From Siphonodentalium dalli (Eukaryota; Mollusca; Scaphopoda; Gadilida; Siphonodentaliidae), in the NCBI GenBank assembly GCA_032622095.1, contig CP136067.1:135473990-135537989 (forward strand): a stretch of DNA of 64,000 nt, given 5' to 3'. A program made the position numbers and the translations under genes. The notes beneath the pieces are model-generated. The model searched no databases, had not been told where the DNA came from, and saw only the letters and a program-made list of their open reading frames with translations. Shown here in pieces: positions 1 through 64,000 of this stretch. The first letter of the stretch is position 1; the number at the start of each line of letters is the position of its first letter.

Positions 1-147
1 TTTATCTTCTGCAAATTAGGGGACATAGAAACGGAGCAGAAGGGAAACAGTAAATGTCAGGCAACACTAGTCCAAGGCTTGGTTGGGATTTGACAGGTCT
101 GGTATTGTTGTGAAATTCATTTTAGATTGATTGATTTGCAATACATA

Positions 148-338
148 CAGTAATGCTCTAAATAATCGACTCCTTGACCACAGCAGAATTTGGGCAACTT
201 TTCAGGATTTAGTCGGAAATATGGCTCAGTGAGAGCTTTCCTATGACTGGCAACAAGCCATATTTCCGACTAAATCCTGAAAAGTTACCCATAATTCTGC
301 TGTGGTTAAGGAGTCGATTATTTAGAGCTTTTATACTG
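148..338. mobile_element. Palindromic MITE, CAGTAATGCYCTA family (TA target)
   Basis: A foldback element flanked by TA on both sides, beginning CAGTAATGCTCTAAATAATC and ending with a matching inverted arm. The arms read through 'gactccttgaccacagcag' and 'caggatttagtcggaaatat' and meet at a short centre near 232-247. TA target and CAGT start point to a Tc1/mariner or pogo-like non-autonomous element. Other copies lie at 5399-5573, 24476-24641 (truncated), 47403-47616, 58272-58462 and 63532-63706. It has no coding capacity; the small ORF across it is an artefact of the palindrome. Confidence 0.85.
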
Positions 339-478
339 TATATTGCATTTATTCCAATATCAAACTTATTAGCTACAATCGGAAGCTCTGTGTAACTCAA
401 TGGACATGTGTAAATGGTTCAACACATCCAACATAATGCAATTATCTAAACTGAAATAATACTTAATACAACTGCTTC

Positions 479-897
479 TATGGGAGGCCAAATTCACATT
501 TAATAACCAATTACGCTTAAGCGTAATGCATTATGCTTAACTTAAGCGTAATTTCATTACCCTGAAGCGTAATACCATTACGCATAAGCATAATGCAATT
601 ACGCTTGAGCATAATAGTCTCACTCACAACTCCATTACGATAAGCTTAATAGGTTTTCATAGCCTTACTACCTTACATATAATGGCATCATCTAAGGTAG
701 ATATATATTAAATGTTACTAGCATCAGTAATTGGCTGCATCCATTTCAGATCCAGGGGAGTTTTGAGATATGGAATTTGAATTACGCTTAAGCGTAATGA
801 CATTACGCTTAAGTGTATGGCATTACGCTTAAGCGTAATGGCATTGGAAATACACTTAAGCGTAATTGGTTATTAAATGTGAATTTGGGCTCCCATA
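479..897. mobile_element. TIR element with internal ATTACGCTTAAGCGTAAT palindromes
   Basis: Long terminal inverted repeats begin TATGGGAGGCCAAATTCACA and run about 45 bp. They are flanked by a 6-bp direct repeat TGCTTC (473-478 and 898-903). Immediately inside both ends, and again in the middle, are tandem palindromic units related to ATTACGCTTAAGCGTAAT. Copy B (58606-59004) is 20 bp shorter because one palindrome unit is missing. A detached left end is seen at 35239-35260. Superfamily uncertain; no coding capacity. Confidence 0.8.
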
Positions 898-903
898 TGC
901 TTC

Positions 904-1555
904 AAATGGTGCATAAAGAATCAAGACAATATCTGTGATCTATTATTTTTTATTTATTCTCCTTGAAGCATTTCTTTAAACCTGCAATGGAAAATAAACA
1001 CAGTTGTAGGGTTGTGGGTTTTAAAGTGAGACCTAACAAAATGAAAGTGTCAATGACACAGTAGCTCAACTTAGGGAGTCGTTAATAATTTTATGCTGGC
1101 AGAGCAGTCAATAGAATAAAGATAAAGAAGGTATGTAAAAAGTTTCAGTAAATGGATTGTATTGTGTAAATGATACTAATTTCATTGCCAACATTTATCC
1201 ACTAAATGCGGGCTGCAGATTGTGCCGATGGATTCACAATTTGAAATCCAAAATGGCTGCTGGCTCCCATCTGGAGGTCACCCGAAGATCCATATGAAAT
1301 TTGGTGATGAGGGATGCGGCCTGTAGGGTGAGCCAAGGAAATTGTTGGTGGATGCCAAGCCATGGCAATAGTTCAAAATTTACAAAGTCAAGTTGAGCTA
1401 AAAAGACCATTGCTTCTGCGGACTGATAAAACTAGAGGCGTGACTGTCCAAATGGGAATAAGGATACCCCCCGTGCTTTTAAAACACTAAGATGTTTCAC
1501 ATGTCAGTAAACATTAAGTTAAAATAATAAAATAACAGATTGGTATTGAAGGTGC
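904..1555. other. No recognised feature (within duplicated block)
   Basis: AT-rich sequence without a supported gene, terminal repeats or tandem array that I could recognise. It is duplicated with its surroundings at about 59011-59665. Confidence 0.5.
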
Positions 1556-1559
1556 ACAA

Positions 1560-1960
1560 CCCTAACCCTAATCCTAAACCTATTGACCGAAAAATGTAGG
1601 AATAAAATCTTGGACAAAATTATGCATGTTGAGAAAATGTTCTTAGTCGAAAAAGGGGAATAACTCCACAAAAAAAAGTCGGACAGACATCATAATCACA
1701 GGTTCCCATGCTACTAAATATCTGTGCAAAGTTTCAAAAAAATTTCTATGTCAAAAAAGGGATATAATCAACCAAAAAAAGTCCGACAGACGTCATAATT
1801 GCAGGTGCACATGTTTCCATGGTGATTGATGCCTGTGCCAAGTTTCACGGAAAATGATTAAAAAACGACTGAGAAAAACTCCGGACAAATATCCGTCCAC
1901 GGACGGATAAGCCGATTGCAGTATAGCCCCCCCACAACATTGTTGCAGGCGTATAAATAA
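1560..1960 (+). repeat. Dispersed mollusc-type repeat ending in GGCGTATAAA
   Basis: Two internal units start around 'gtcggacagacatcataat' and 'gtccgacagacgtcataat'. They are followed by a 'ccgtccacggacgga' hairpin and the end 'gttgcaggcgtataaa'. The GGCGTATAA end recurs at about 3165 after a different body, so both belong to one class of dispersed element. No coding potential. Confidence 0.5.
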
Positions 1961-1989
1961 TAGGGTAGCTAGTTAAAACTATATTACAT

Positions 1990-2117
1990 ATTATTAACCA
2001 TTATATTGTGTTCTCTTACACATGTATATAAGAGGCTCACTATGGAGACTCTCATATATGAGAATGCATTGGCACAGGATTTTCGCAAAATTTCAGGAAG
2101 CTCCAGTCGTAGAAGTG
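1990..2117. mobile_element. Relic TTAA element with degenerate hairpin module
   Basis: The segment at 2010-2091 is a diverged form of the 'aatgcattctcttatatat' palindrome found many times at 44-50 kb. It is followed by 'ggaagctccagtc' and TTAA at 2118-2121. That end mirrors the element start at 5602 (CCCTTTCATGACTGGAGC), so this looks like the decayed right end of the same piggyBac-like family. Confidence 0.5.
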
Positions 2118-2204
2118 TTAACTAAGCTAGTTACATGACCCTATTTTAAAGAGTTTATTTATGATGCACCAGTGTAGCTCCTCAGAAGACTTCAACAATA
2201 ACAA

Positions 2205-3170
2205 CAAGAGCTACGCTGGGCGTGCAATATACGCCCTCTCTTGGGTCGGCGGAAACTGATCAAAAAGGGGCATAACTCTGGTAAAAATTGGCGGACGGAA
2301 CTCAAATTTAAACTTGACCTGTGTTTTGGTGGGACAAAGTAATATACCAAATTATCATTGAATCCGATAAGCTCTAGTAAAGTTATCATGCGGACAACAA
2401 ATTTCAGGGATTTTCAACGTCAAATTACGTCAAATAAGGGGCATAACTCCGGTGAAAATTGGCGGACAGAACCCAAATTCGAACTTGAGCTGTCTTTTCT
2501 CCTAATAAACCCACATACCAAATTTGATTGAAATCGGTTCACTCTAACTAAAGTTATCATCCGGACAACAAATTTCAGGGATTTTCTAAGTCAAATTACG
2601 TCAAAAAAGGGGCCATAACTCTCGCAAAAAATATCGGATTAAAACGAAATTCGGACTTGAGCTGTATTTCGATATATGTAATCCACAAAAAAACGGGTTT
2701 TGCGTATAAACATTCCAAAATTCGAGTTATCATCCGGAAACCAAAAAACATAAGAAAAACTGAATTTTCGGAGTCGAAAAAGGGGCATAACTCTGCCAAA
2801 AATGTCGGACAGAACCCATGTTCGAACTTGACCTGTGTTTTGGTGGGCGAAAGTAATATACCAAATTTGGATTCATTCCGATAAACTATACTAAAGTTAT
2901 CATCCGGACAACAAATTTCAAGGATTTTCTAAGTCAAAAAACGTTAAATAAGGGGCATAACTCCGGTGAAAATTGGCGGGCGGAACCCAAATTCGAACTT
3001 GAACTTACTTTTCGGCTAATAAACCCACATACCAAATTTTACTAATTTTGGTTCACTCTAACTAAAGTTATCATCCGGACAACAGGTTAACGGATGGACG
3101 GACGCCCGCCCGCCCGGACGGACAGACCAATACTATAATACGGCCTTTTTTTCAAAAGGGCGTATAAAAA
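2205..3170 (+). repeat. 'Cataactccgg' dispersed tandem repeat element
   Basis: It starts with 'gggcgtgcaatatacgccc' and ends with 'caaaagggcgtataaa', so the ends carry a short inverted TATACGCCC. Between them lie about five diverged units. Each contains 'ggggcataactccggtgaaa', 'cccaaattcgaacttgacct' and 'aaagttatcatccggacaac', followed by a 'gacggacgcccgcccg' run. Small ORFs on both strands are frames through the repeat and are not genes. Confidence 0.7.
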
Positions 3171-4350
3171 CAAGGGGTAAGCATCTAAGATGCTTTTGTC
3201 GAGTTTTTTTGGCAGTCGAACCAAACTTCTGCCAATAAGGTGCACAACTCCGGGAAAAAGTCGGACGGTGGTATATTATTGCAATAGACCTATATACCAA
3301 ATATCAATTGAATCCGTTAATATTTCATTGAGTTATCACACTAACTGTGATAAAATTGTTATTAAAATAGACAAACTAAGACCCATAACTCCGGAATATT
3401 TTTTCCGACAAACCTGGTTTTCCAACTGGTCCGAGATATTGTTGCAAGAGACTCATATACCAAATATTGTTTAAATCGGTTAATATTTCATTGAGTTATC
3501 GCGCTAACGGTGATAACATTGCTGACAAGGGGTACGCATCTAAGATGCTATGTCAAGTTTATTGGCAGTCGAAAAAAACTTCTGCCAATAACTTTGGCCC
3601 AAAAATTCGGACAAACCTGGTTTTCAAACTCGTCCGAGATATTGTTGCAAGAGACTCATATATCAAATATGGTTTGAATCAGTTAATATTTGATTCAGTT
3701 ATCGCGCAAACGGTGAAAAAAATGCTAAAAATAGACAAACTAAGGCCCATAACTCCGGGGAAAAAATTCGGACAAACCTGGTTTTCGAACTCGTCCGAGA
3801 TATTGTTGCAAGAGACTCATATATCAAATATGGTTCGAATCAGTTAATATTTGATTCAGTTATCGCGCTAACGGTGAAAATGAGTTTTTTGGCAGTCGAA
3901 CCAAACTTCTGCCAATAAGGTGCACAACTCCGTTAATATTTCATAGAGTTATCGCACTAACGGTGATAAAATTGTTATTAAAATAGACAAACTAAGACCC
4001 ATAACTCCGGGAAAATTTTTCGGACAAACCAGGTTTTCGAACTCGTCCGAGATATTGTTGCAAGAGTCTCATATACCAAATATTGTTGAAATTGGTTAAT
4101 ATTTGCGGGAGTTATCACGCTTACGGTGAAAAACAAAACAAAAAAGTAAACAAAGATGGATAACTCTTGTCAAAAAGTTCGGACGTGACCCATTTTCTAC
4201 AGGCAGTAAACAGTCATTGGGAGCAACTCATACCAAATTTTTTTGGAATCCGTTCACAAATGTCAAAGTTACAAGGCATTCTTTAGGTCCGCCCGCCACC
4301 CCTCGTCAAACCAAAAATCGAGTTTTTGAAAAACTCGACTAAAAAAAAGA
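3171..4350 (+). repeat. ~161-bp tandem array with Helitron-like end
   Basis: The motif 'gagatattgttgcaagag' recurs at 3433, 3636, 3797 and 4049. The tightest spacing is 161 bp; the others differ by insertions. The right end is a hairpin, 'tcgagtttttgaaaaactcg', followed by aCTAA. A hairpin followed by CTRR is the usual 3' mark of Helitrons. The layout of a ~160-bp tandem core within a mobile unit is also known for bivalve pearl/HINE-type elements. That assignment is inference. An inverted relative lies at 38218-39110. Confidence 0.65.
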
Positions 4351-4421
4351 GTTGGTAGGTCTTGTTAGTGGAAACAAAGCTCTCTTTTTATTTTAGGCCC
4401 AAATTTTAACATAGTCATGGC

Positions 4422-5353
4422 TAGGGTTGAAACGATTAATCGACTAGTCGTAGACGACGTTGAAATGTCAGAACGTCGACTCTGAATTTTGCCGTCGACT
4501 AGTCGGAATATAGTGTATTAGTTTCATGTATAACGTTTTCAATATCGATTCCGGCATAAACGGTGTTAACTGCGCGTAAGTTATGGTCAGTATAACGTTT
4601 GGTGGCACCTGGAATTGGCAGTGTTACTAGTATAGACACACACGGACCGGTAACCCGACTATTAATTGGACGAATGAAATTGACAACACAATGTCTCACT
4701 CGTCGTTTGAGGTCAAAGACATGATGGCAATGATTGACGCGGCTTTGTAGTTTGTCCGAGACCGCTTTGATACAGACACTGTGTATATTTCCATTGATCT
4801 CGCACCGTCGGATTATGATACGACGCTGGGTGAAGGACACTTAAGGTGACGTCATTTGTGCTACCGTATATAAATGATACTGACATTAAGAACTGGATAT
4901 CGTATTCTACAACGTAGCCTATACAGTTACTATAGGGCATATTTAGTCGGAACATTAACATTTTATAGTGACACCGCTCGGCACCGGTTTATTGGTGATC
5001 ACGTGACTAAACGAAATAATCTCGAACGCTGATATTAAATTTAAAACCTGTATAAATGATCGTGTATCTAATCATTATCCACCACATGTCTAATTATATA
5101 ATTGCATTCAGTGTGTTGGATAAATATCAAGATGTTTACAGTATTATTTCCCAAATATATTGGTGTGTATGCAGGGAAATGCGCAATGCAATAGACCGTC
5201 ATTGCATCAGTCATCAGTGTGCGCCATGTACGATGAATTTACCGTACAATGGTATGTTTGAAAGTTTTGATATCGGGTACCGACTAGTCGACGCAACGCG
5301 AATTTTGGGCCTCGACTAGTCGACTCTGAAATTCACTAATCGTTTCAACACTA
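4422..5353. mobile_element. Non-autonomous hAT, TAGGGTTGAAACG family, copy 1
   Basis: The left end is TAGGGTTGAAACGATTAATC and the right end is its near inverted repeat. Both are rich in GACTAGTCGA subterminal motifs. An 8-bp target duplication GTCATGGC flanks it (4414-4421 and 5354-5361), diagnostic of hAT elements. I see no intact transposase. Other copies are at 14105-14569, 18980-21133 and 62548-63486; a relic end is near 10200-10260. Confidence 0.92.
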
Positions 5354-5398
5354 GTCATGGCTAACTTTCCAAAACTAAATCATCCAGAAATATAGCTA

Positions 5399-5573
5399 CA
5401 GTAATGCCCTAAGTAATCGACTCCTTAAACACAGCAGAATTATGAGTAACTTTTCAGGATTTAGTCGGAACTATGGCTCGTTGAATGGCAACAAGCCATA
5501 TTTCCGACTAAATCCTGAAAAGTTAACCATAATTCTGCTGTGTTTAAGGAGTCGATTACATAGGGCATTACTG
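5399..5573. mobile_element. Palindromic MITE, CAGTAATGCCCTA family
   Basis: Same family as 148-338. It is flanked by TA, starts CAGTAATGCCCTAAGTAATC and ends with the reverse complement. The loop is shorter here because part of the central arm is missing. Confidence 0.85.
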
Positions 5574-5601
5574 TACATCTTCAAACTGATTGATTCCTTA
5601 A

Positions 5602-5867
5602 CCCTTTCATGACTGGAGCTTCCTGAAACTTTGTGAAAACCCTGTGCCAATGCATTCTCTTATATATGCGAGTCTCACATATACAAGAGAATGCACTGGC
5701 TTACAAGGTCAAGGTAAATATTGTTACGTCAATGCATTCTCTTATATATACGAGACTGCCAAAGGGAGATAGTTACAATACCATGTCATTACACATGAAA
5801 GATGTTTGTTTACATTTTGTGATGACGCGTGCTGGCGAACTTCAGTTCAAACCAGGCAGCAACATAT
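5602..5867 (+). mobile_element. TTAA element left end (CCCTTTCATGACTGG) with hairpin module
   Basis: TTAA at 5598-5601 is followed by CCCTTTCATGACTGGAGCTT. A short version (5646-5700) of the recurrent palindrome that begins gccaatgcattctctta follows, with a half copy at 5733-5765. No matching right end is seen before 6020, so it is truncated or its end lies elsewhere. The end of the duplicated block visible in this window falls at 5867. Confidence 0.5.
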
Positions 5868-6020
5868 GTGGAATTAGAGAGATGAAGAAAAAAAATATAT
5901 TTCAAAAATCTAATAACTCTGTTGAAAGGTGGGTTCCTCGACTAATTTTTTCACACACGAAGGCTGACGAAGCCAAGAAATGGTAATTTAGGGTGTAAAA
6001 TCAGAAGGGTAACTTTAATA
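5868..6020. other. Flank downstream of the RPL12 stop
   Basis: This is the expected 3' UTR side of RPL12, which is on the minus strand. A minus-strand ATTAAA (complement of 6014-6019) lies a few bases past the stop codon and could serve as a polyadenylation signal. It is very close to the stop, so this is weak. Nothing else is recognised. Confidence 0.3.
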
Positions 6021-6127
6021 TCATAGTACACTCACATCAGGAATATCAAGTTCGCCGTTGCTTATTTGGTCGATCACGTCATGTGGCGGCTGGCGGTCAA
6101 TAGTACAACCAACAGATTGGGCTGTGC
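6021..6127 (-). CDS. RPL12: RPL12 exon 5 (C-terminus and stop)
   Basis: The acceptor is 'gtttttgttacag'. It encodes [17 protein letters not shown], then [13 protein letters not shown], the normal end of L12. Reading on gives VSVL and TGA at 6023-6021, a tail about three residues longer than usual. A good donor sequence GTGAGT directly follows the codons for IPD (GT at complement 6035-6034). An alternative is splicing there to a small unseen last exon. I favour the simple read-through. Confidence 0.88.
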
Positions 6128-9100
6128 CTGTAACAAAAACACCAGTCACACAACATGCATATAAGAGGTACTAATTGTAATTATAACTGGTCTGTATGTT
6201 ATTTATTTGCACGAGGCTCAGGGTTGCCAAAGTACTGACGGTACCACAACTTTCGGTACCGGTTCCGCACTGATGTTCAGTACCGCAAACTAGAGGTGCC
6301 ACGATTATTGATTTTGATAATCGATAATCGGTCGTCAATAATCGACTATAATCGATTAATCGTACCTTATATTAATAAATAACATCAGCGGAAGTTATAT
6401 AATAGCGTAATATGGCCTATTGGCTGGGTGCTAGTTAACTGCACTGTCACTGGTTGTTTTAGGCATCTGCTGATGTAATTTTTACGTTAATAAAGTGCGT
6501 CATAATTACTATTAATACTAATGAGCATAATGTATTGAATACCAGCACAGTTCTCAGCGATGTTATGGTTATAATATTTGTGAGTTCATAGTGCCACCTT
6601 TCAAGTATAAATATACAATGATGTCGCCATGACCCGACGAGAAACCATGTCACATCATCAAATGAACTGCCGACTGTTTGCTACATATATTAAATTTAGT
6701 CAGTACTCATGCTATTGGAATCTCTTTGATACACATTCAAAGGATGTTAACCCCTCGGTTGTAGATTAAACGGTAGAACAAATACCATATTCAGTAATAC
6801 ATGTCATTTTCTGACGTCCGAAATAAATAACTTAGATTAATCGACGATGTAAATTGTAATCGATTATCGGCTTTATCAACGGTTCATCGATTATACGATT
6901 AATCGTGGCACCCCTGAGGCGGTTTTCAGCAAGTCGCAAATGGAGGATTTTTTAAAAGACAGAATACAGAGTGGAACGAATGTAGACATGTATATATCTA
7001 ACATTGTTGGCTTGTATGGATACACGGTACACCATATTATTTGTGTGGTAATTAGAGAACTCACTAATCGTCCATTTTACTCGCATGTTGTAATTTCATA
7101 AATGATGTCACCCAATGAAACCAAAGTCGTTTCCAGTAAGCCTAGTTGTAGTTGGCTAGTTCGAAAATTTGGAATAGATTTTGAGAGAAAATACTGCCGC
7201 ATACACAATGCATGCATTCTGTCAATTTCGTGACAAGTTGTCATAGTGCGGCATACTGTGCCTTTGATGTTTGAATGTGCATTGTGCTGACGATATGTTG
7301 AGCTTCTTAATTAACCCTTTATATTCGTTAAGATGTACATTAATAGAAATCAACAATCAATACCGATAACCATTGGTAATCGACATCAGAACCGGTACCG
7401 ATTTAATTCCTGATTACCGCCGGTTCCGGTACCGGTACCAGTTGGCAACCCCGACGAGGCTTTAAATTAGTCTGCACCTTTATTTAATTTTTTGTATTGT
7501 ACTACTGGTTAGTAATTTTGGAAGACAGTTAGGTCTTGACAGGCCAATTTTGACAGAGTTGTTAACAAAATCCTGTAAGTGTCAATATACTTAACAAATT
7601 GTTGACCGGGAGTCGCATGTGTCTCGAGACTTCCGAAACACCGGTCACCGGTGGGAACATGGATTTAAAATATGATAACCACATGCTGCTTAATGATGTA
7701 TAAATATATCTATATTATTTTATCCAGCAAATATAAATACTACGGTAAATAATTTTAGAGCTCATCTGTGGAAACAAACATGATTATTTTAGCATTAACA
7801 TGTCGGTTTTAGAACATCCACCTTCAGATCTACAGAACATGGCTTTTCAAGCTACATGTAGGTATTACTAGCACTTGTTACTACAACTGAAATTATTTCT
7901 GCTGTTGTCGCATTGATGTAAACATGAAACTTGATGGAATCTTGTTGCAAACTTGTTATATACATGGTGCATACCAAATAATTTTACATGGTACTTATCA
8001 ATATAGGCTACACAAGTACACTTGTGTTTACTTCTAAAATACACGGCAGTCAGCGGACACTTCTTTCGTAAGTAGGTCAAGTTAATTGTGCATGTACATT
8101 TCATTTGAAGACTTCTGCAATTTTCAATGCCTATCAAGTGATTAATCGTATAATCAATGAACCGTTGATAAAGTCGATAATCGATTACCATTTCCATCGT
8201 CGATTAATCTGCATTATTTATTTTGATATCGGAAAATGACGGGTATTATTGAAAACCGTGTTTGTTTTACACAGTTTAATCTACAACCGATGGGTTTATA
8301 ACAACCTTTGATCGCATATCAAAGAGAATCCGACAACATGAGTACAGTCCTGTAAAAGCCAGCTTTGGTCACTAGGACGTAACAACTACAGATACAGATA
8401 CTAACTTATGTTGCAAACAGTCGGCAGATCATTTGATGATGCGACATGGTTACTCTTCGGGTCGTTGTATATTCTACAAATTGGCGGCACTGCAGCTTTG
8501 AACTTATGGCGACGTCGTTGTATATTTATACTTGAAAGGCGGCAATACATCTTTGAAATGTGCCGACTGTCACCGTGTTCAATGAATGCACTTGCCCTTG
8601 AATCTGATTAAACCAATGGGAGTTGATTGACATTCGAGAGAGCTCTGGAAACCAGGGAACCTATGGCATTTTAATCAGCGATGTTCTCTGCGACGTCATT
8701 TGCGAGTATACTTTGTTTGCATAAGTATACTTAGATGTTACTAGTACAGGCTATTGCGTATCATGCTGAATGAAACTCGATATTATAAAATACTTAACTT
8801 GTGGAGTTGTGGGTGGGGGCACACCTTTGTGATTGTTATCCATACTCTCTAAGTTTGATGAAACTTATAGTTTCCATTATTTAGGAACCGTCGGCCATCC
8901 GTTGTGCATTCCTACTTCTATATTGTTTATATGTTTGGCTATTATTAACACTGAAATTAATAGTACGTTCGTTCTAATAAGCTCACAAATATTATAACCA
9001 TAACATCACGGAGAATTGTGCTGGTATTGAATACATTGTGTTCACTGGTCATCAACAGTGGTTAATTATTAACGTAAAAATTACATCAGCCGATGCCTCA

Positions 9101-12100
9101 AACAACCAGCGACAGTGCAGTTAACCAGCACCCAGCCAATAGGCCATATTACGGAATACTTCCACTGATGTTATTAGGTATGATTAATCGATTATTGACG
9201 ACCGATTATCGAAATCAATAATCATGGCACCTTTAGTATGCATGATGACAGGGTCGTTTAACTACATGGAAGTGGCAACCTGGGGTGTCTTTTGGGGTCA
9301 ATACTTCAGTTATTAATTTGATAAAAGCATGCTTGTCTTTGCAGAATTTCTTGACTGGCTAAATGTGACGAACTTATGATATATGGACGCTCTACTAGTA
9401 TATACGATCCTTGATTCGCTGCACTTAGCTTACCCAAGGAAGATATGTGGTCTGCTCGTATGAAAACCAACTAAGATATTGAGATAGCAAAATGCTATTT
9501 TTAGTACGAGACCTGTTTATTGTCGCAATTGTGATATTTGATAACATTTATTTGTGGTTTTATGTGAGCTGGTCACTAAAGTGTAAACCATGTCATACAA
9601 ATGGTGACAGGGTCAGCGCCCGCGCTGGACCAAAATTTACTTTTGCAAATAATTTGCCAACCTGATAGATTAATTTTATGCAACATTGAGTCTTATTTTG
9701 TGGTTTATTATACAACATTAAACCAATCACCGAACATTAAAATTGTAGAAGGCTTGCTTCATCAGAAGGGCACATTACAAGAGGATTAGCTATGTCAACG
9801 CCACCACCACACTAAATACCTTATTTTTGCCATTGGCAAATTTGGCAAGTGGCAGCGCGAACCCTGGACAGGGTGGTCTTGGATGAAAAACAGCATTTCG
9901 CTATCATAATATCTTAGCTGTTTTTCGTACGAGCAGACTTGGACTAAGCTGAACAATGACAATTAGATTGTTCCAATGAGACAGGTCGCCATCTCTGGAT
10001 TGAAGACAGACTATTGGGATTTGCGGCTTGCTTTTATAATACCGCAATCGTGACCAGGCAGTTGTATTTACGGTCCACAGCAATACTAGTAGTCTGCTTT
10101 ATACATACGGGCGAAGATAAATATGGAAGTATATTGCATACAGCAATGATTGTTACCAATGAAACTTTTACCTATACCTTTCTGGGAAAAATGGCACTTA
10201 GTCGATTGCTATTAGATTGCAAAAATTCTAGTCGACAACGACTAATCGTTTCAATACATGACATTGAAGAGATAAGGAATGCAACGAGTTAAAATACTTA
10301 AGCAAAAGCAAAGGTCAACATAAATAGCCATACAAATTTTGGGTTTTTATTTTTTAATATCGAGTTTTAGGGTCACGCAGATTGGCGGTTATTTTTAGGG
10401 TCGGTTGATGTGCTGAAACATACAATCTATTTTTATTGGCATAAGCAATAATAATTTTATATGACAGCAGAGATTTGGTGTACCAATCCTTGCTAAGTAT
10501 GAAGTTGACACAGTATGACAATACATACCTAAGACTTCTTTGACGGTACCAGCTAATGTCTTGGCCATACTTCTATCTCTGAGCTGTCGGGCAATGCTGA
10601 GAATCTCTTCAAATGGGATGCTCCCACTGTGTTTAACTGAAAATAGTTTAGAATAACTCAACAAATCAATCAGTCAACTCACTTGATATCTAGGGGGCAG
10701 GGTTCATACTCTTGAAACACTTTTTGAAGAGACTGGGTTGAGATTTTAAGGACGATTTTACTATCTTAACGATAACGTTTTGCGGAGGAGAGAAATCCTG
10801 ATAATTATTTATAGTATTGGCTGAATGATATCGCGGCTTCGAGTTTTTGCTCGAGATTTCCAATACATTTACCCATGCAAACCATTTTATGCAAGTACTT
10901 TTTCAAGGATAGTGGTGGATTATTAAGTACTTCCATTTAAGCACTAAGGAGTGGGTCAAAATTTAAACACCTTTCATTTTGCATACAACCCTGGGCCTTG
11001 CAAATTGGCAATAAACCATGTCAACATTTTATAACGAGAGGCCGATCGTGGCAGATATTTAACCCATACCTTGGCGATAGTGATAAGCTATTTTCAGCTA
11101 GGAATCTAAAAATACAATGTTAATCTTCAAAGATAAGAACAATTTTTTTTTTAAATAGGCCCATAACTCTTATAAAAATCGGATCAAACCCATCTTCAAA
11201 TTTTATCTGTATTTTGGGCTGAGAAACTCACATGCCAAATTTGATTTCAGATATCTTTTTTTTTAGTTATTGCAGCATGCGTGAAATCTAAGTTGAAGGG
11301 CCATAACTCCATAAAAAAAAACTTGGATCAAACCCATATTTTAACTCTATCTGTATTTTGTTAGATTTACAAAATTTGGTTCCGATCAAATAATAAAAGA
11401 GTTATAGCACCATGCACTATGGTATGGGTAAAAATAAAAATAAATTAATCAATAGGAGCAAAGAGTGTGTCAAAATAAACCAATATAAAATGAGACATAT
11501 CAGATGAAAGTATCAGGAATGTTGAGAAGTGTTAATTTTTAACTACAGAAATCCATGCAAGTGAATGAGGAGAAACCTGGAGATATAATAGAAGAATGAT
11601 TAATTGAAAAATATAATGAGAACATCCCTACAAATGAACAATAGACTTTTCCAATATAAAACTTTAGAACTGAATGGGAGAGTCCACTGAATCATGAATG
11701 GGTTACAGCTTCACTGCTATGTGGTATATATGTGGCTAAAAATAACTCGAATTCAATAAGACATCATTTTCGCTGGTCTCTCTATTGCAGTTAAGCTTGT
11801 ATTACTGGTAATTAATAGTAAGCTACTTGGGTTATTATCAAACCTCAAATCTGTTCAATCCTTAGTTGAATAAAAGGTCGGCCGACCACAGTGTCCCCCG
11901 ACAACGTGGCAAGTCGATGTCGCTTTGTTAAAGAAATTAAAAAAATGTTGAAATGTTCCAAGTCGAAAGGGTTAATAATTCCATAAAAAAAAAAAAAATT
12001 CCGTCATCTATATACATGTTGCACATCTCCAATATGTGGGTAAAAATACTCTGAAGTTACAAATATCTACGAGCAAAACTGTAGGAGGAGTTGATTACAC

Positions 12101-46396: not shown

Positions 46397-46409
46397 ATTT
46401 TTTTTTTAA

Positions 46410-51770: not shown

Positions 51771-52497
51771 TCTTGGCATCCATCCTGTATCCAGTTGATA
51801 TTTGTTTATCATAATGGACCAGAAGAGTCACATATTATGGTTCATCTCAGTTCCGTCTCAAAGTTCTGCCCATTTCCTTCCAATAATATGGTCAGAATCA
51901 CAAAAGAAGTTCTCTGCAAAATTCCATAATTTAAAATGAATTTGTCATGCCCTATACGGAACTGGCACAGCCATAATTGTCAGTTAATTAACTAACACAT
52001 ATAATAACCAAATGGGTCACAATTTGCTACATTTTCGGATAACGCAAAGAATAATTATATATATATGTTATATGTAAAAAAAATAAATTGTTACCAATTT
52101 GAGCAATTTGGTCTATAAACACCGTAGTGTGACACATTTAAGATAGACCAATACAATACACACCTTTCAATTCAAAGATAGTTACAATATTACTAGAAAA
52201 AATTGTCCAAACCCGAAACGTTATTTTTTGCCGATATTTATGTCAAGTTTTTGTGAGAAAAGTCCAATATTTTTGGTGATGACAACAGTAACAATTAACC
52301 ATGGTGCAGCAGACATATTAGTATTCAAAGTATAGAAGGCATAATAGCCAATTTTGTACACCAACCACAACTTGTAAGCGATTGCAGGACACCCTAGGGC
52401 AATATTCACCATTTTCCATATTTTGAGCCAAAGTAAGAATTTTGGTTTCACTTAGTTGGAATATTCATAGGGAATAGTATGCCTCACTTAAAGGGGT
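51771..52497. other. Intergenic, nothing recognised
   Basis: AT-rich sequence with no supported gene or element end. Confidence 0.45.
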
Positions 52498-52501
52498 ACT
52501 G

Positions 52502-53135
52502 TACACTAAGATAGGCGATTTTTTTATTTACTCCCATTGAAATAACTTTCAAGTTAGATTGTGTTCGTGCTATATGAGTTTCGTATAAACCTAATTTAGC
52601 GAAGAAAATATTGATCTTTGAAACAAAAATATTACGATTTCAAACTACGCGCCATGTTTTTGACCTTCACCGGAGAAGACGCAGGTTGCAGGAAGAACCG
52701 GAAGTTCATTGCTCACAGCTTCGATTGATGCATTCAATCTCTTCCATCGAACAATCTCACTCCCTATAAAATACTTGACGCTTTATGACTCTTGTTTCTT
52801 TGTCCCTTTTCCCCGAATCGGTTATAACGGGCCTTCTTTTGCAGGTAACATGTTTTGTTTGCAACTCAATAATGTTCGCGAATGGCCGTCGATAAAAGAC
52901 ACGCAACATATGCGATTTCAAGAACGGTAACTCGTAATGCCATAATTCTCCATTTTATGACTCCAGCCATAAATGAATTTATATTAAATAATTCAATTTT
53001 ACTTTTACGATAGCCTGTTAACCGGAACGTTTTCAGTAGACATCGTCGACTCAAATTAGTTATTTTATAATATAATATTCATATTAGATCGCTATTGTCA
53101 CTGGGAATTTATTGAAATTGGGGTACAGTACCCCT
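52502..53135. mobile_element. TTAA-flanked element, AGGGGTACTGTAC ends, 634 bp
   Basis: TTAA at 52498-52501 and 53136-53139 flanks AGGGGTACTGTACAC and the inverted '…ggggtacagtacccct'. It is a piggyBac-type insertion of a third terminal family and lacks the 69-bp palindrome. The internal 73-codon frame has no motif. Confidence 0.88.
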
Positions 53136-53139
53136 TTAA

Positions 53140-53690
53140 TTGCAACCTTCTGTTCATTTCTTTTTGAAATATGACTAGAATCCCAGTTGTGATTTTTTGT
53201 GAAATTTTATACCGCGTTCTGTAAAATCGAGTTTTTGAGGGATCACAAGTGGATAGGACCCCAATAATTGCTCCAATGGTCAGTTAATATACAAAATACA
53301 GTCATATTACTCAACCAGTTCCAAACAGCAAGAACCGATCTAGAAGATATTTGTGAAAAAATGCCATATTTTCAACTTCCGGCGGCCATCTTGGATGGTG
53401 AGTTTCAATTTTGGCCCAAAATAGTGTCATGTCTTAGCTTCATGAAAATATATATATTTTACTAGATTAGTCATGTGAATTTGCAACAAATTCCAAGTAA
53501 CTGGTTTTACGTCTGGGAAAAAATGGGGGGGGGGGTATACTTTTTAGGGCGCTAAAAAAAACAAGACAGTCAATGACTGTAGGGTCGCTCACCAGACTGC
53601 AAAGACTGGGACTCTGGAGACCACAACAGTCAGAACTTTTCATAATCACTTTAAAAGAAGTAGATATCTCAAGAGTTAAATCTAAAACAA
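53140..53690. other. Intergenic, nothing recognised
   Basis: Apart from a 'gggggggggg' run near 53525 I see nothing to annotate. Confidence 0.4.
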
Positions 53691-54200
53691 AAAATTTGGA
53701 GTTATGTCCCTGGCCCCGCCCACATTTGACCCAGTGACCTGATTTGAACAAATCTGAACCCCAGGATCCTTCATACCAAATATGAACCCATATAGCCTGA
53801 TGGTATTTGAGAAGAAGTCACTTTAAGAATACTATGGAGGGAAAGAGTTATGGCCCTGGCTTCGCAACTATTTCAAGTGAACTCATCTGAATGTGATTCA
53901 CCTAGGGAACATCCACACCAAATATGAAACAATTCGGTCTTATTGTTCTGAAGATGTTTAAAAGAATTACTATGGTGGGAAAGAGTTATGGCCCTGGCTT
54001 CGCAACTATTTGACCCAGTGACCGCATTTGAACAAATCTGAATGAGAATCACCTAGGGAACATCCACACCAAATATGAACCCATTTGGTCTTATGGTTCC
54101 AGAGAAGAAGATGTTCAAATAATTGTTGTCGGACGGATGGACGGACAGACTATGGACGGACGAGGAGTGATGACTATAGCTCCACCGGAGCACAGGTAGG
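53690..54200 (+). repeat. Dispersed 'gagttatggccctggcttcg' repeat, plus strand
   Basis: Tandem-like units carry 'tttgaacaaatctgaa', 'accaaatatgaac' and 'agagttatggccctggcttc'. The end is 'gatgactatagctccaccgg', a degraded version of the hairpin end at 57177-57225. Additional units follow at 54230-54600. Confidence 0.7.
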
Positions 54201-54675
54201 GTGGCTGGTTGATAATTAAATCTCTTATCTCCGCCCCTATTTGAACAAACGTGAATACCAATCTATGAGATCCATTCATTTGGTAATTTCAGACATTAGA
54301 TTTTAAGAGTTGAACTGAACTGATTTTCCTAAAATGACCCCAAATCTGAAAAAAATCTAAACACCAGTCATCGAAGGACCCTCCATACCAAACATAATCT
54401 AAATAGTCCAGATGGTTCCTGAGAAGAAATTGTTTTAAGAATTACTATGGAAGGAAAGAGTTATGGCCCCGACTTCTCACCTATTTGACCTGATGAACTC
54501 ATTTGAACAAATCTGAATGCGAGTCACCTGGGGGACATCCACACCTTAATATATAAACCCATTTGGTCTTTAATATGTATCTGGAGAAGAAAACAATTGA
54601 TGGACGGATAGAGACATGACAGATGGGTGGATGGGAGAACAGTCTGACAGAGACTGACAAATTCAATCCAATATA

Positions 54676-54696
54676 CCCCCCCCCCCCCCCCCCCCC
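54676..54696 (+). repeat. Poly-C tract (21) in dispersed repeat
   Basis: Context 'ttcaatccaatata' before and 'aagttttctttgcaaaatca' after. A sister at 55202-55223 sits in the same context. A third relative in reverse orientation at 40965-41010 has normal sequence in place of the C run. Confidence 0.9.
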
Positions 54697-54699
54697 AAG

Positions 54700-56240
54700 T
54701 TTTCTTTGCAAAATCAGGGTATGAGTTCCAACTGGATACTGGTGGTTAAGAAAATAATATTCGAACAGACAAGCCTGAACATAGTGTCTGACATTTGCAG
54801 AATGAGGTCCCCAAAGGGTGAATTTAATGACAATCCTGCAATGCGGGCTAGCATCACCAAATTTACCCTCTGTCCCTCATTCTGTGTAGGCCTCAACTTC
54901 TATGGGAGACATAGCATTAGATTGAATTTCTCCAGTTAAAGTTGGTGATGTGCACCTCAATTATGCATTTTATATTCACAAATTAGGGGATATAGAAACT
55001 AAACAGAAGGGCTAAAGTAAGTAAAAATGTCAATTTAAGTGCCTATATACTTCCCAGAAGATGAGGCCTAAGCAGAATGAGGACCCTGGCTAGTGTATTT
55101 GGTGATGCTAGACTGTTGTGCAGGGTAGCATAACTAAATTCACCCTCTGGGGACCTCATTCTGCAAATGCCAGATAGAAGACAAATTTAATCCAATATAT
55201 ACCCCCCCCCCCCCCCCCCCCCCATTTTTCTTTGAATATTAGTCGTATGATTTCATCTGGATAAGTGGTGATTAAAACAATAATATGAAATGGCCAAACC
55301 TGAATTTAGTATGTCTGACATTTGCAGAATTAGGTCCCAAAAATGTGGATTTAATGACAATAATCTGTAAGGCAGGCTAGCATCAACAAATTCATCCTCA
55401 ATCTGATTAGGCCTCAATTGCCAATAAAACCAAGGAACAGATTGAAGTCATACAGTTGAAGTTGGTGATACACACCCATTGAGCACCTCAATTATGCATT
55501 TTATCTTCTGCAAATTAGGGAGACATTGAAAAAAGTGACTAAATCAAACTGTCAATTTGATACTTAGGATACTTCCCAGAAGATGAGGACTAAGCAGAAT
55601 TAGGTCCCTGTCGGGTGTATTTGGTGATGCTAGCATGATGTATGGGGTAGCAACACTAAATTCACCATCTGGGGACCTCACTATGTAAATGTCAGACACA
55701 CTATTTCCAGACTTGAAGAAATCAAAGCCATTCACAGTATCATTGAATGTCAGTCATCACCAAAAAATGGAAGCACCAGTTTGTTGTTAAATTGCTACAG
55801 ATATGTTTAGATTAGAATAATACATGTCATCTGGCCAGTTTATGTAATTAATGACCTGTACCTTTACAGATATATATGCCTCTGTGGTGAGAAGAGGTAT
55901 TAAATTGAGAGGTGATATTGCTTGGAAGGGATGTTGGTTGATGGCATGGTTGGGCCTGTGCCATGTGGGTGGGGGGAGGGTGGAATGTTTCCATAATTTC
56001 ATTAAAGAGTAAAGTTTCATAACTCTGCAGATGTTATATATAATGGTGTCACTTTTTTTTCAAATTTTAAAACATGTTAAAAAAAAAGATGAGGCCTAAG
56101 CAGAATAATGTAATTGAGGGTGTATTTGGTGATGCTAGCCTGCTGTATGGGGTAGCAACACTAAATTCACCATCTGGGGACTTCATTCTGCAAATGTCAG
56201 ACACACTATGTCCAGGCTTGGAGAAATGAACAATGGACTA
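54700..56240. repeat. Clustered 'aggcctaagcagaat' dispersed repeats
   Basis: Several overlapping copies carry 'ctgacatttgcagaatgagg', 'tttggtgatgctagc', 'ctaaattcaccctctgggga' and 'tatcttctgcaaattaggg'. The duplicated block boundary at 58125 falls inside one such copy. A poly-C run is at 55202-55223. No coding signal. Confidence 0.65.
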
Positions 56241-56650
56241 TTCCTTGTAGACTCTGGTAGAATAGTTGTTTAGCTAATGTCATGTCTTGTAATGATTATG
56301 ATAGATGGTAAACTGGTCTGAAGCAAGCAATCTTCAGCAAGAGTATCAGGTGACCACACTATGATAAATTGGCTTTTTCAATAATACAGGCTTCAGTGTT
56401 CTCTTAAAAATAATAGTGCATAGCAAAGAGGTGTGAATTATAAAGGGCCATAACTCTGTTAAAATATATCGGATCAAACCCATATTTTAACTTGATCTAC
56501 TTGATCTGTATATAAGTGTCAAAAATTCATATACCAAATTTGGATGAATTATATATCAAAACAAGAGTGGAAGGGGTTAAATAAACAATACCAAAATCCA
56601 TACAGATGAAGAACATGCTAAGAAAAATCTAGGTAAGAAATATGAGGCTG
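56241..56650. repeat. Unrecognised sequence with one 'gccataactctg' unit
   Basis: 56450-56530 carries 'ggatcaaacccatattttaa', matching the unit at 11300 in RPL12 intron 3. The rest is unrecognised. Confidence 0.4.
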
Positions 56651-57225
56651 TGATGTGTCCTAAACAAAAATTAAAGGTCAAAATGCAAAAATTAAATTTT
56701 TTGTTTTTAAAGTTATGTCCCTGGCTCTGCCCCTATTTGACCCAGTGACCCCATTTGAACAAATCTGAACCCCAGTCACCCAAGGTATCTCTGTACCAAA
56801 TATAAGCTAAATCGGCCAAATATTTTTTTAGAAGAAGTCATTGTAAGAATTACTATGAGTTATGGCCCTGGTTTCTCAACTAATTGACAGGGTGACCTCA
56901 TTTGAACAAATCTGAACACCAGTGACCCAAGGACCCTCCATACCAAATATTAGCTAAATCGGCCCAATGGTTCTTAACAAGAAGTCGTAAGAATTACTAT
57001 GAAGGAATAGAGTTATGGCCCTGGCTTCGCAACTATTTGACCCAGTGACCTCATTTGAACAAATCTGAATGAGAGTCACCTAGGGAACATCCACACCAAA
57101 TATGAACCAATTCGGTATGATGGTTTCAGAGGAGATGTTTTTAAAAAAGTTGACGGACGGCCAGACGGACGCACGAGGAGTGATGACTATAGCTCCACCT
57201 GAGACTTCGTCTAAGGTGAGCTAAA
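56650..57225 (+). repeat. Dispersed repeat with hairpin + CTAA end
   Basis: Three units of the 'gttatggccctgg' family are followed by 'gacggacggccagacggacg' and 'gatgactatagctccacctg'. The end is a hairpin of CACCT-GAGAC / GTCTA-AGGTG and then agCTAA. A hairpin immediately before CTAA resembles a Helitron 3' end. The inverted copy at 37655 shares it. Confidence 0.7.
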
Positions 57226-57448
57226 AATTGCTCAAGGCTGACAGATGGCCAGCCGATAAAATCTTGATGTCGGATACCTGAATTTACAAAATCCGCAGAG
57301 AAAAAAACTTTCTACGCCAAAACACGCATCCGTGACCTGGCGGCCGGACTTATTTGTGTTGTATACGTTAATGCACCCAATTGAGATTTTATTTTCAAAG
57401 AAATGCAAGTCCCAGCTCATACCTTATATGGAATGGAAGCATAGGCAT

Positions 57449-57849
57449 TAGGCCAAAAAAAAAAAACGTCTTTGTTTCCGATACCCTGGCTGGCTGAGAT
57501 TTTCTTGCCAGCCTCAATTTTTTTTTAATTTTCTCCAGAAAGCTAGTCTATATTGTTACCTGTTAGAGTGTCAATGTGATTATTTATCGTTTTCCCCCCC
57601 AATCCCACCAAAAGCATAAATAACCAGGTTATTAAGCTCAACATTGGTAGAGATCTTACTGCAGAGTGAATGAACAAGGGACAACATGTTTTTATCAAAG
57701 GTTTAACAAAAAAAAAATCCCTGCCTGCCTGTCTAAAATTTTCCCAACATGTTTTTATCAAAGGTTTAACAAAAAAAAATCCCTGCCTGCCTGTCTGCAA
57801 AATTTTCCCAATGTTATCGGAAACGGAGAAGATTTTTGTTTTGGCCTTA
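57449..57849. mobile_element. TIR element, AGGCCAAAA…TTTCCGATA ends
   Basis: Left 'taggccaaaaaaaaaaaacg' with 'tttgtttccgatacc'; right inverted 'tatcggaaacggagaag' with 'tttttgttttggcctta'. Inside, a 62-bp unit ('caacatgtttttatcaaagg' … 'ccctgcctgcctgtct') is tandemly doubled at 57683 and 57745. The two ORFs repeating CFYQRFNKKK reflect that duplication. Confidence 0.7.
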
Positions 57850-58124
57850 ATGAAGCCAAGTGGTGGCTCTAGTTTTCAATCGATCAAAGATGACAGCTCA
57901 AGACTGAAGCAAAGGATAACTGTCATGTATTTTTCGAGAAAAAGATTTAGCTGTTTGGATCAAGTCTGGATAGTGAGTCGGCTATTTGCAGAATGAGGTC
58001 TGCAAAGGGTGAATTTAGTGATGCTATCACGCCGGCTCTGGGAACCTTATCAGTCCTAGGATCAGATTGAAGTCCCCCAGTTGAAGTTGGTGATGTTCAG
58101 CCATTAGTCACCTTGATAATGCAT
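57850..58124. repeat. Flank left of copy B, dispersed repeat
   Basis: 57975-58124 contains 'tttgcagaatgaggtctgca' and 'ttgaagttggtgatgttc', part of the 'aggcctaagcagaat' family. The copy A counterpart, if present, lies before the window. Confidence 0.5.
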
Positions 58125-61100
58125 TTTATCTTCTGCAAATTAGGGGACATAGAAACGGAGCAGAAGGGAAACAGTAAATGTCAGGCAACACTAGTCCAAG
58201 GCTTGGTTGGGATTTGACAGGTCTGGTATTGTTGTGAAATTCATTTTAGATTGATTGATTTGCAATACATACAGTAATGCTCTAAATAATCGACTCCTTG
58301 ACCACAGCAGAATTTGGGCAACTTTTCAGGATTTAGTCGGAAATATGGCTCAGTGAGAGCTTTCCTATGACTGGCAACAAGCCATATTTCCGACTAAATC
58401 CTGAAAAGTTACCCATAATTCTGCTGTGGTTAAGGAGTCGATTATTTAGAGCTTTTATACTGTATATTGCATTTATTCCAATATCAAACTTATCAGCTAC
58501 AATCGGAAGCTCTGTGTTATAACTCAATGGACATGTGTAAATGGTTCAACACATCCAACATAATGCAATTATCTAAACTGAAATAATACTTAATACAACT
58601 GCTTCTATGGGAGGCCAAATTCACATTTAATAACCAATTACGCTTAAGCGTAATGCATTATGCTTAACTTAAGCGTAATTTCATTACCCTGAAGCGTAAT
58701 ACCATTACGCATAAGCATAATGCAATTACGCTTGAGCATAATAGTCTCACTCACAACTCCATTACGATAAGCTTAATAGGTTTTCATAGCCTTACTACCT
58801 TACATATAATGGCATCATCTAAGGTAGATATATATTAAATGTTACTAGCATCAGTAATTGGCTGCATCCATTTCAGATCCAGGGGAGTTTTGAGATATGG
58901 AATTTGAATTACGCTTAAGCGTAATGACATTACGCTTAAGCGTAATGGCATTGGAAATACACTTAAGCGTAATTGGTTATTAAATGTGAATTTGGGCTCC
59001 CATATGCTTCAAATGGTGCATAAAGAATCGAGACAATATCTGTGATCTATTATTTTTTATTTATTCTCCTTGAAGCATTTCTTTAAACCTGCAATGGAAA
59101 ATAAACACAGTTGTAGGGTTGTGGGTTTTAAAGTGAGACCTAACAAAATGAAAGTGTCAATGACACAGTAGCTCAACTTGGGGAGTCGTTAATAATTTTA
59201 TGCTGGCAGAGCAGTCAATAGAATAAAGATAAAGAAGGTATGTAAAAAGTTTCAGTAAATGGATTGTATTGTGTAAATGATACTAATTTCATTGCCAACA
59301 TTTATCCACTAAATGCGGGCTGCAGATTGTGCCGATGGATTCACAATTTGAAATCCAAAATGGCTGCTGGCTCCCATCTGGAGGTCACCCGAAGATCCAT
59401 ATGAAATTTGGCGATGAGGGATGCGGCCTGTAGGGTGAGCCAAGGAAATTGTTGGTGGATGCCAAGCCATGGCAATAGTTCAAAATTTACAAAGTCAAGT
59501 TGAGCTAAAAAGACCATTGCTTCTGCGGACTGATAAAACTAGAGGCGTGACTGTCCAAATGGGAATAAGGATACCCCCCGTGCTTTTAAAACACTAAGAT
59601 GTTTCACATGTCAGTAAACATTAAGTTAAAATAATAAAATAACAGATTGGTATTGAAGGTGCACAACCCTAACCCTAATCCTAAACCTATTGACCGAAAA
59701 ATGTAGGAATAAAATCTTGGACAAAATTATGCATGTTGAGAAAATGTTCTTAGTCGAAAAAGGGGAATAACTCCACAAAAAAAAGTCGGACAGACATCAT
59801 AATCACAGGTGCACAGGTTCCCATGCTACTAAATATCTGTGCAAAGTTTCAAAAAAATTTCTATGTCAAAAAAGGGATATAATCAACCAAAAAAAGTCCG
59901 ACAGACGTCATAATTGCAGGTGCACATGTTTCCATGGTGATTGATGCCTGTGCCAAGTTTCACGGAAAATGATTAAAAAACGACTGAGAAAAACTCCGGA
60001 CAAATATCCGTCCACGGACGGATAAGCCGATTGCAGTATAGCCCCCCCACAACATTGTTGCAGGCGTATAAATAATAGGGTAGCTAGTTAAAACTATATT
60101 ACATATTATTAACCATTATATTGTGTTCTCTTACACATGTATATAAGAGGCTCACTATGGAGACTCTCATATATGAGAATGCATTGGCACAGGATTTTCG
60201 CAAAATTTCAGGAAGCTCCAGTCGTAGAAGTGTTAACTAAGCTAGTTACATGACCCTATTTTAAAGAGTTTATTTATGATGCACCAGTGTAGCTCCTCAG
60301 AAGACTTCAACAATAACAACAAGAGCTACGCTGGGCGTGCAATATACGCCCTCTCTTGGGTCGGCGGAAACTGATCAAAAAGGGGCATAACTCTGGTAAA
60401 AATTGGCGGACGGAACTCAAATTTAAACTTGACCTGTGTTTTGGTGGGACAAAGTAATATACCAAATTATCATTGAATCCGATAAGCTCTAGTAAAGTTA
60501 TCATGCGGACAACAAATTTCAGGGATTTTCAACGTCAAATTACGTCAAATAAGGGGCATAACTCCGGTGAAAATTGGCGGACGGAACCCAAATTCGAACT
60601 TGAGCTGTCTTTTCTCCTAATAAACCCACATACCAAATTTGATTGAAATCGGTTCACTCTAACTAAAGTTATCATCCGGACAACAAATTTCAGGGATTTT
60701 CTAAGTCAAATTACGTCAAAAAAGGGGCCATAACTCTCGCAAAAAATATCGGATTAAAACGAAATTCGGACTTGAGCTGTATTTCGATATATGTAATCCA
60801 CAAAAAAACGGGTTTTGCGTATAAACATTCCAAAATTCGAGTTATCATCCGGAAACCAAAAAACATAAGAAAAACTGAATTTTCGGAGTCGAAAAAGGGG
60901 CATAACTCTGCCAAAAATGTCGGGACAGAACCCATGTTCGAACTTGACCTGTGTTTTGGTGGGCGAAAGTAATATACCAAATTTGGATTCATTCCGATAA
61001 ACTATACTAAAGTTATCATCCGGACAACAAATTTGAAGGATTTTCTAAGTCAAAAAACGTTAAATAAGGGGCATAACTCCGGTGAAAATTGGCGGGCGGA

Positions 61101-64000
61101 ACCCAAATTCGAACTTGAACTTACTTTTCGGCTAATAAACCCACATACCAAATTTTACTAATTTTGGTTCACTCTAACTAAAGTTATCATCCGGACAACA
61201 GGTTAACGGACGGACGGACGCCCGCCCGCCCGCCCGGACGGACAGACCAATACTATAATACGGCCTTTTTTTCAAAAGGGCGTATAAAAACAAGGGGTAA
61301 GCATCTAAGATGCTTTTGTCGAGTTTTTTGGCAGTCGAACCAAACTTCTGCCAATAAGGTGCACAACTCCGGGAAAAAGTCGGACGGTGGTATATTATTG
61401 CAATAGACCTATATACCAAATATCAATTGAATCCGTTAATATTTCATTGAGTTATCACACTAACTGTGATAAAATTGTTATTAAAATAGACAAACTAAGA
61501 CCCATAACTCCGGAATATTTTTTCCGACAAACCTGGTTTTCGAACTGGTCCGAGATATTGTTGCAAGAGACTCATATACCAAATATTGTTTAAATCGGTT
61601 AATATTTCATTGAGTTATCGCGCTAACGGTGATAACATTGCTGACAAGGGGTACGCATCTAAGATGCTATGTCAAGTTTATTGGCAGTCGAAAAAAACTT
61701 CTGCCAATAACTTTGCAACAAGGCCCAAAAATTCGGACAAACCTGGTTTTCAAACTCGTCCGAGATATTGTTGCAAGAGACTCATATATCAAATATGGTT
61801 TGAATCAGTTAATATTTGATTCAGTTATCGCGCAAAGGTGAAAAAAATGCTAAAAATAGACAAACTAAGGCCCATAACTCCGGGGAAAAAATTCGGACAA
61901 ACCTGGTTTTCGAACTCGTCCGAGATATTGTTGCAAGAGACTCATATATCAAATATGGTTCGAATCAGTTAATATTTGATTCAGTTATCGCGCTAACGGT
62001 GAAAATGAGTTTTTTTGGCAGTCGAACCAAACTTCTGCCAATAAGGTGCACAACTCCGTTAATATTTCATAGAGTTATCGCACTAACGGTGATAAAATTG
62101 TTATTAAAATAGACAAACTAAGACCCATAACTCCGGGAAAAAAATTCGGACAAACCAGGTTTTCGAACTCGTCCGAGATATTGTTGCAAGAGTCTCATAT
62201 ACCAAATATTGTTGAAATTGGTTAATATTTGCGGGAGTTATCACGCTTACGGTGAAAAACAAAACAAAAAAGTAAACAAAGATGGATAACTCTTGTCAAA
62301 AAGTTCGGACGTGACCCATTTTCTACAGGCAGTAAACAGTCATTGGGAGCAACTCATACCAAATTTTTTTGGAATCCGTTCACAAATGTCAAAGTTACAA
62401 GGCATTCTTTAGGTCTGCCCGCCACCCCTCGTCAAACCAAAAATCGAGTTTTTGAAAAACTCGACTAAAAAAAAGAGTTGGTAGGTCTTGTTAGTGGAAA
62501 CAAAGCTCTCTTTTTATTTTAGGCCCAAATTTTAACATAGTCATGGCTAGGGTTGAAACGATTAATCGACTAGTCGTAGACGACGTTGAAATGTCAGAAC
62601 GTCGACTCTGAATTTTGCCGTCGACTAGTCGGAATATAGTGTATTAGTTTCATGTATAACGTTTTCATTTTTCAATATCGATTCCGGCATAAACGGTGTT
62701 AACTGCGCGTAAGTTATGGTCAGTATAACGTTTGGTGGCACCTGGAATTGGCAGTGTTACTAGTATAGACACACACGGACCGGTAACCCGACTATTAATT
62801 GGACGAATGAAATTGACAACACAATGTCTCACTCGTCGTTTGAGGTCAAAGACATGATGGCAATGATTGACGCGGCTTTGTAGTTTGTCCGAGACCGCTT
62901 TGATACAGACACTGTGTATATTTCCATTGATCTCGCCCCGTCGGATTATGATACGACGCTGGGTGAAGGACACTTAAGGTGACGTCATTTGTGCTACCGT
63001 ATATAAATGATACTGACATTAAGAACTGGATATCGTATTCTACAACGTAGCCTATACAGTTACTATAGGGCGTATTTAGTCGGAACATTAACATTTTATA
63101 GTGACACCGCTCGGCACCGGTTTATTGGTGATCACGTGACTAAACGAAATAATCTCGAACGCTGATATTAAATTTAAAACCTGTATAAATGATCGTGTAT
63201 CTAATCATTATCCACCACATGTCTAATTATATAATTGCATTCAGTGTGTTGGATAAATATCAAGATGTTTACAGTATTATTTCCCAAATATATTGGTGTG
63301 TATGCAGGGAAATGCGCAACGCAATAGACCGTCATTGCATCAGTCATCAGTGTGCGCCATGTACGATGAATTTACCGTACAATGGTATGTTTGAAAGTTT
63401 TGATATCGGGTACCGACTAGTCGACGCAACGCGAATTTTGGGCCTCGACTAGTCGACTCTGAAATTCACTAATCGTTTCAACACTAGTCATGGCTAACTT
63501 TCCAAAACTAAATCATCCAGAAATATAGCTACAGTAATGCCCTAAGTAATCGACTCCTTAAACACAGCAGAATTATGAGTAACTTTTCAGGATTTAGTCG
63601 GAACTATGGCTCGTTGAATGGCAACAAGCCATATTTCCGACTAAATCCTGAAAAGTTAACCATAATTCTGCTGTGTTTAAGGAGTCGATTACTTAGGGCA
63701 TTACTGTACATCTTCAAACTGATTGATTCCTTAACCCTTTCATGACTGGAGCTTCCTGAAACTTTGTGAAAACCCTGTGCCAATGCATTCTCTTATATAT
63801 GCGAGTCTCACATATACAAGAGAATGCACTGGCTTACAAGGTCAAGGTAAATATTGTTAGGTCAATGCATTCTCTTATATATACGAGACTGCCAAAGGGA
63901 GATAGTTACAATACCATGTCATTACACATGAAAGATGTTTGTTTACATTTTGTGATGACGCGTGCTGGCGAACTTCAGTTCAAACCAGGCAGCAACATAT
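58125..64000. repeat. Long direct repeat, right copy (copy B)
   Basis: It is collinear with 1-5867. It repeats the MITE (58272-58462), the TATGGGAG element (58606-59004, one palindrome unit fewer), the TTAA relic (about 60114-60240), the 'cataactcc' element (about 60320-61290) and the ~161-bp array (about 61291-62480). The hAT follows at 62548-63486, then the second MITE (63532-63706) and the TTAA element start (from about 63735). Small differences include an 8-bp gain near 59808, a 7-bp gain near 61717 and a 7-bp gain near 62669. The repeat continues to the last base shown. Confidence 0.97.
62548..63486. mobile_element. hAT, TAGGGTTGAAACG family, copy 4 (duplicate of copy 1)
   Basis: It has the same 8-bp flanks GTCATGGC as copy 1, so it arose by duplication of the block and not by a new insertion. 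It is seven bases longer owing to an added 'ttttcat' near 62669. Confidence 0.92.

Follow-up and report, generated by a model that had tools for sequence, protein, structure and literature searches.

The stretch of DNA analyzed here, referred to as the window, comprises 64,000 nucleotides of the scaphopod Siphonodentalium dalli and corresponds to C7:135473990-135537989, where C7 is a scaffold of 211.8 Mb in an assembly of nine scaffolds and 2.23 Gb. RPL12 is located on the minus strand at 6039..22458. It was recognized by tblastn with a human RPL12 query, as four stretches at 22384-22458, 17870-18070, 10527-10649 and 6039-6134, the limits of which are alignment limits and not exon borders. Three open reading frames of at least 130 amino acids were listed, and Rfam gave no match within the window at gathering thresholds. 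A tandem repeat with a period of about 171 bp lies at 2262-3084 and again at 60377-61200, and a query that covered its first part (2203-2600) returned dozens of matches with 96-99% identity, distributed over all nine scaffolds. The sole run of N in the window is a 100-N assembly gap at 50783..50882, which separates the contig on its left, designated contig A, from the contig on its right, designated contig B.

The two ends of the window are near-identical direct repeats. BLASTN of the window against itself aligned 1..5867 with 58125..64000, both on the plus strand, over 5,898 columns with 98.8% identity, 17 mismatches, 10 gap openings and 53 gap bases. A separate alignment gave figures that agreed with those of BLASTN, and the individual gaps ranged from 1 to 20 bases. 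The match scored 10,455 bits, compared to a top score of 32.5 bits in 20 shuffled controls. The first-pass annotation had counted about 20 substitutions and ten small indels between the ends, and this count was accurate; the 100-N gap does not figure in that finding. Its description of the repeats as bracketing the window did not hold, since the match ends only where the window itself ends and the homology runs on in the scaffold; the appearance of bracketing is due to where the window was cut. The left repeat is part of a longer unit, copy A, with its partner visible inside the window, and the right repeat is the corresponding part of copy B.

Extension of the scaffold on both sides followed by self-alignment had been proposed as a check in the same annotation and was carried out: with 10 kb added per side, homology continued outward in both directions, and both of its limits were reached when the left side was extended by 30 kb and the right side by 60 kb. 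In window coordinates carried beyond the edges (negative numbers lie to the left of the window and numbers above 64000 to the right), the homology pairs -13679 to 50782 with 50883 to 110636. Copy A is thus 64,462 bp long, starts outside the window and occupies 1..50782 (plus strand) within it as the end of contig A. Copy B is 59,754 bp long, occupies 50883..64000 (plus strand) as the start of contig B, and runs out of the window to 110636. The first block pairs 50883-52491 with -13679..-12071 at 99.4% identity, and 50883 is the first base past the gap. The last block pairs 49769-50782 with 109623-110636, and 50782 is the final base ahead of the gap. This flush homology is directly visible in the letters on either side of the gap. 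Because the homology is flush with both sides of the gap, these results indicated that the end of contig A and the start of contig B are one locus in two versions. A circular or terminally redundant molecule such as a virus, organelle or plasmid, previously offered as a less likely source, would give direct repeats at the two window ends, but the homology continues past both ends and the window is an internal part of a 211.8-Mb scaffold (135.47-135.54 Mb), which excludes such a source.

The arrangement suggests that the duplication is false and probably represents an unpurged heterozygous overlap of two haplotypes at an assembly gap, a reading to which we assign a probability of about 96% from the letters of the assembly. 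In a diploid animal with two haplotypes that differ here by about 0.6% in substitutions and by many insertions, contigs A and B would each have been built from a different haplotype, or with switching between haplotypes. The two contigs would overlap by about 60 kb of one locus, and this overlap would have been neither merged nor purged. Scaffolding would then have placed one contig after the other, separated by a 100-N gap, and the locus, including RPL12, would have been written twice.

A real tandem duplication of about 60 kb that arose recently and doubled RPL12, either segregating or fixed, with the contig broken at the junction between the units, would also produce this geometry. The order and orientation of unit, junction and unit are those expected, the junction between copies A and B is the 100-N gap itself, and homology would be flush with the gap if the break fell at the junction; an assembler can also interrupt a contig where the units of a real tandem repeat meet, which leaves a gap there. 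The units would later have diverged by 0.6% and gained different insertions. The gap must, however, fall on the junction to the base, and on both of its sides. Further, no shared sequence that could have driven unequal exchange was found at the two ends of the unit: matches between the outer flanks and the opposite copy (at least 95% identity), and between the two outer flanks (at least 90%), were 224 bp or shorter among the best 12 rows of each search, and these two comparisons gave no match at the unit ends at E 1e-5. Unequal exchange between repeats at the unit ends was consequently rejected as a route; other routes of duplication need no shared sequence.

The divergence between the copies was assessed over their full length. 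The chain of copy A against copy B consists of 25 collinear blocks, all in one orientation. It covers 47,127 aligned bases, a total in which overlaps between blocks are counted twice, and contains 281 substitutions (0.6%) as well as 115 small gap openings. At 21 of the 24 block junctions the copies differ in length by more than 50 bp. These copy-specific insertions run both ways, some being present only in A and others only in B; an A-only sequence of 5,516 bp was placed by self-alignment at 24747..30262. The edges of 11 larger insertions were inspected, five in B and six in A. Five of the 11 look like clean transposon insertions: their target sites match on the two sides, their ends are inverted, and the empty site is preserved intact in the opposite copy. 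The target sites are TTAA, AATTAATA and CATGT in copy B, and TA and TAC in copy A, the last of which can also be read as TA. They include a B-only insertion of 644 bp with TTAA on both sides (52492..53135) and A-only insertions of 1,283 bp with TA on both sides (15161..16443) and of 739 bp with TAC on both sides (16603..17341). The B insertion flanked by AATTAATA is 782 bp long and is one member of a family of which at least 39 further copies, at 95-99% identity, match over about 730 bp, as judged from 40 scored candidates of 1,328. The remaining six insertions were less clear, and in three of those in copy A the flanking bases matched imperfectly.

Both the 0.6% substitutions and the copy-specific insertions with matching target sites exceed what sequencing error would produce. 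These data bear on a further explanation, in which the same haplotype was assembled twice as a result of sequencing errors and the overlap was left unmerged. Such "homotype" duplication is a class described in PMC9516828, and it would give the same geometry, but kilobase-size insertions with matching target sites are present in A and in B, and because insertions of this kind are not sequencing errors we rejected this explanation as the least probable of those that still fit the geometry. Insertions in both directions have the appearance of two haplotypes, although two diverged duplicates would fit them as well.

Two smaller differences between the copies were also observed. An additional head-to-tail unit of a stretch of about 350 bp is present in copy B (65054-65754), where copy A has this stretch once (6928-7287); this is a minor difference in tandem length. 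Further along copy B, 73619-76485 is about 94-96% similar to -11650..-6192, near the start of copy A, and does not contain a 2.7-kb insert that is present in that region of copy A.

Near-identical local pairs were also found elsewhere in the assembly. A search for the RRM domain gave 97 matches, with 150 of 314 candidates scored, from which pairs were chosen by eye whose members lie on the same scaffold and have identical scores and profile segments; there were three such pairs and all were compared. The members of the pair on C2 are 782 kb apart and share collinear blocks of 93-99% identity up to about position 8,780 of the 10-kb stretches compared, and those of the pair on C8 are 2.7 Mb apart and share blocks of 94-99% up to about position 7,270. 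In both pairs, unmatched sequence lies between the blocks and at the far end. The members of the third pair, on C9, are 448 kb apart and match at 98.3-99.1% over nearly 10 kb in opposite orientation, and since this pair is inverted it goes beyond what tandem duplication alone gives. The inverted stretches, C9:53680100-53690099 and C9:54127974-54137973, may reflect a haplotype contig that was placed in reverse. A pair of RRM matches with unequal scores at C7:87.28 and 87.35 Mb was rejected as a case of the same phenomenon, as the 10-kb stretches shared only two short blocks of about 90%.

A search for the chaperonin family PF00118 gave 53 matches, with 87 of 99 candidates scored, which fell into nine multi-exon loci and a further two that are long and single-frame. 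Profile segments were repeated on the same strand at distances of 37-169 kb in four of the nine multi-exon loci (C7:133.4, C8:26.6, C1:54 and C1:68). At the two loci on C1, 54.09-54.28 Mb and 68.37-68.56 Mb, the repeated segments lie 162-169 kb apart on the same strand. The full interval between the copies was read for two of the four pairs, C7:133.4 and C8:26.6. At C7:133.4, three chaperonin-family segments are present twice and the later ones are present in the second copy only; a contig end between the copies was therefore predicted beforehand. This prediction was borne out by a 100-N gap at 133441996-133442095. Contig B is flush with this gap, its first base matching 133379498 (0 bp from the gap), and the tail of contig A matches copy B up to 133440255, which is 1,740 bp short of the gap. 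These last 1,740 bp of contig A had no match in the 10 kb of copy B that were compared, and nothing longer than 47 bp was found elsewhere in the tail; about 1,185 of the 1,740 unmatched bases match a genome-wide repeat. At C8:26.6, a gap likewise lies between the copies (26637267-26637366). The match between the tail of contig A and copy B stops 15 bp short of this gap, and the head of contig B matches copy A from 633 bp past it, with no match in copy A to the first 633 bp of contig B among those listed. Unlike the gap in the window, these two gaps are not flush on all four edges.

In total, three N runs were present in 340,871 letters (the window and 28 loci), all of them between near-identical copies; the sample is biased, as it was drawn from stretches lying at suspected copies or between them. 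A search for the proteasome family gave 20 matches at 14 loci and identified no such local pair in any of the 14, which indicates that the artefact is not everywhere in the assembly. Two of the proteasome-family matches on C7 have similar profile segments and different scores. Separately, a repeat of about 730 bp was observed on the minus strand at C7:20.4-24.0 Mb, in eight places 0.2-0.7 Mb apart with 1187 bits each; this series may represent a large amplified segment.

The pairs elsewhere also bear on the tandem duplication. Near-identical copies are separated by a gap at two unrelated loci as well (C7:133.4 and C8:26.6), the first copy at C7:133.4 lacks the later gene segments, and the C9 pair is inverted; in addition, RPL12 is usually single-copy in animals. 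Given the base-exact fit, the gaps at the two unrelated pairs and the inverted pair, we consider a real tandem duplication very unlikely, if somewhat less so than the assembly of one haplotype twice, an estimate that is a matter of judgment and was not computed. A recent tandem duplication of more than 58 kb had been one of the possibilities raised by the first-pass annotation; the repeat pair it relied on is real, but a duplication is not needed to account for it and the overlap of haplotypes is supported. The alternative raised alongside it, that the assembly had joined two haplotypes, agrees with the homology flush with the gap and with the similar near-identical pairs at other loci. We infer, accordingly with the reading preferred above, that copies A and B are probably alleles and that the assembly steps proposed may account for their presence side by side.

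Unpurged heterozygous contig overlap is a well-described assembly artefact. Retained heterozygous overlaps, which scaffolders do not handle, are described in PMC7203741. The overlap class of purge_dups, as presented there, resembles the present case in that the end of one contig equals the start of the next and is retained before scaffolding: the duplicated stretch described here is the end of contig A and the start of contig B. That class is called from alignment and read depth, whereas the call made here is from alignment. False heterotype duplication, as set out in PMC9516828, is similar to the present case in that two versions of one locus are neighbors on the same scaffold, a gap separates them, and a gene is falsely doubled. 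Of the four signs given in that source, one is a gap, and a 100-N gap does lie between the duplicated copies A and B on one scaffold; the other three (depth, linked reads and k-mers) are read-based. The divergence of 0.6% between the copies stands beside heterozygosities of almost 1% to 4.12% in chitons, which are other molluscs, and high heterozygosity is described as very common in molluscs, both according to PMC12005716.

The second copy of RPL12 lies outside the window at 64172-86825, within copy B, and has its four stretches in the same order as the first. Over these stretches the twins differ by one nucleotide and by no amino acid. A genome search with the L11 N-terminal family gave matches at both RPL12 places and one on C6, and the L11 C-terminal family matched only on C6 and missed both RPL12 copies. 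No further RPL12 gene was found by these L11-family searches, which are too insensitive to exclude one, since the C-terminal search missed both copies. A 928-bp query around one RPL12 stretch gave two full-length matches, copy A and its twin, among 40 scored candidates of 3,284; the other matches listed fell on a repeat about 200 bp long or were short and inside the two RPL12 places. RPL12 appears twice because it lies within the contig overlap. The first-pass annotation had suggested that RPL12 might exist in more than one copy if the duplication were real; the apparent second copy in the assembly is most likely due to the artefact. No extra RPL12 gene should be claimed on the basis of this duplication.

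As biology these findings are ordinary. They are a caution to users of the assembly, in which some gene copy numbers are inflated, and any claim of a recent local gene gain in this genome should be checked against read depth. Provided that the copies are alleles, the overlaps would provide aligned pairs of haplotypes, from which insertion polymorphism could be read directly.
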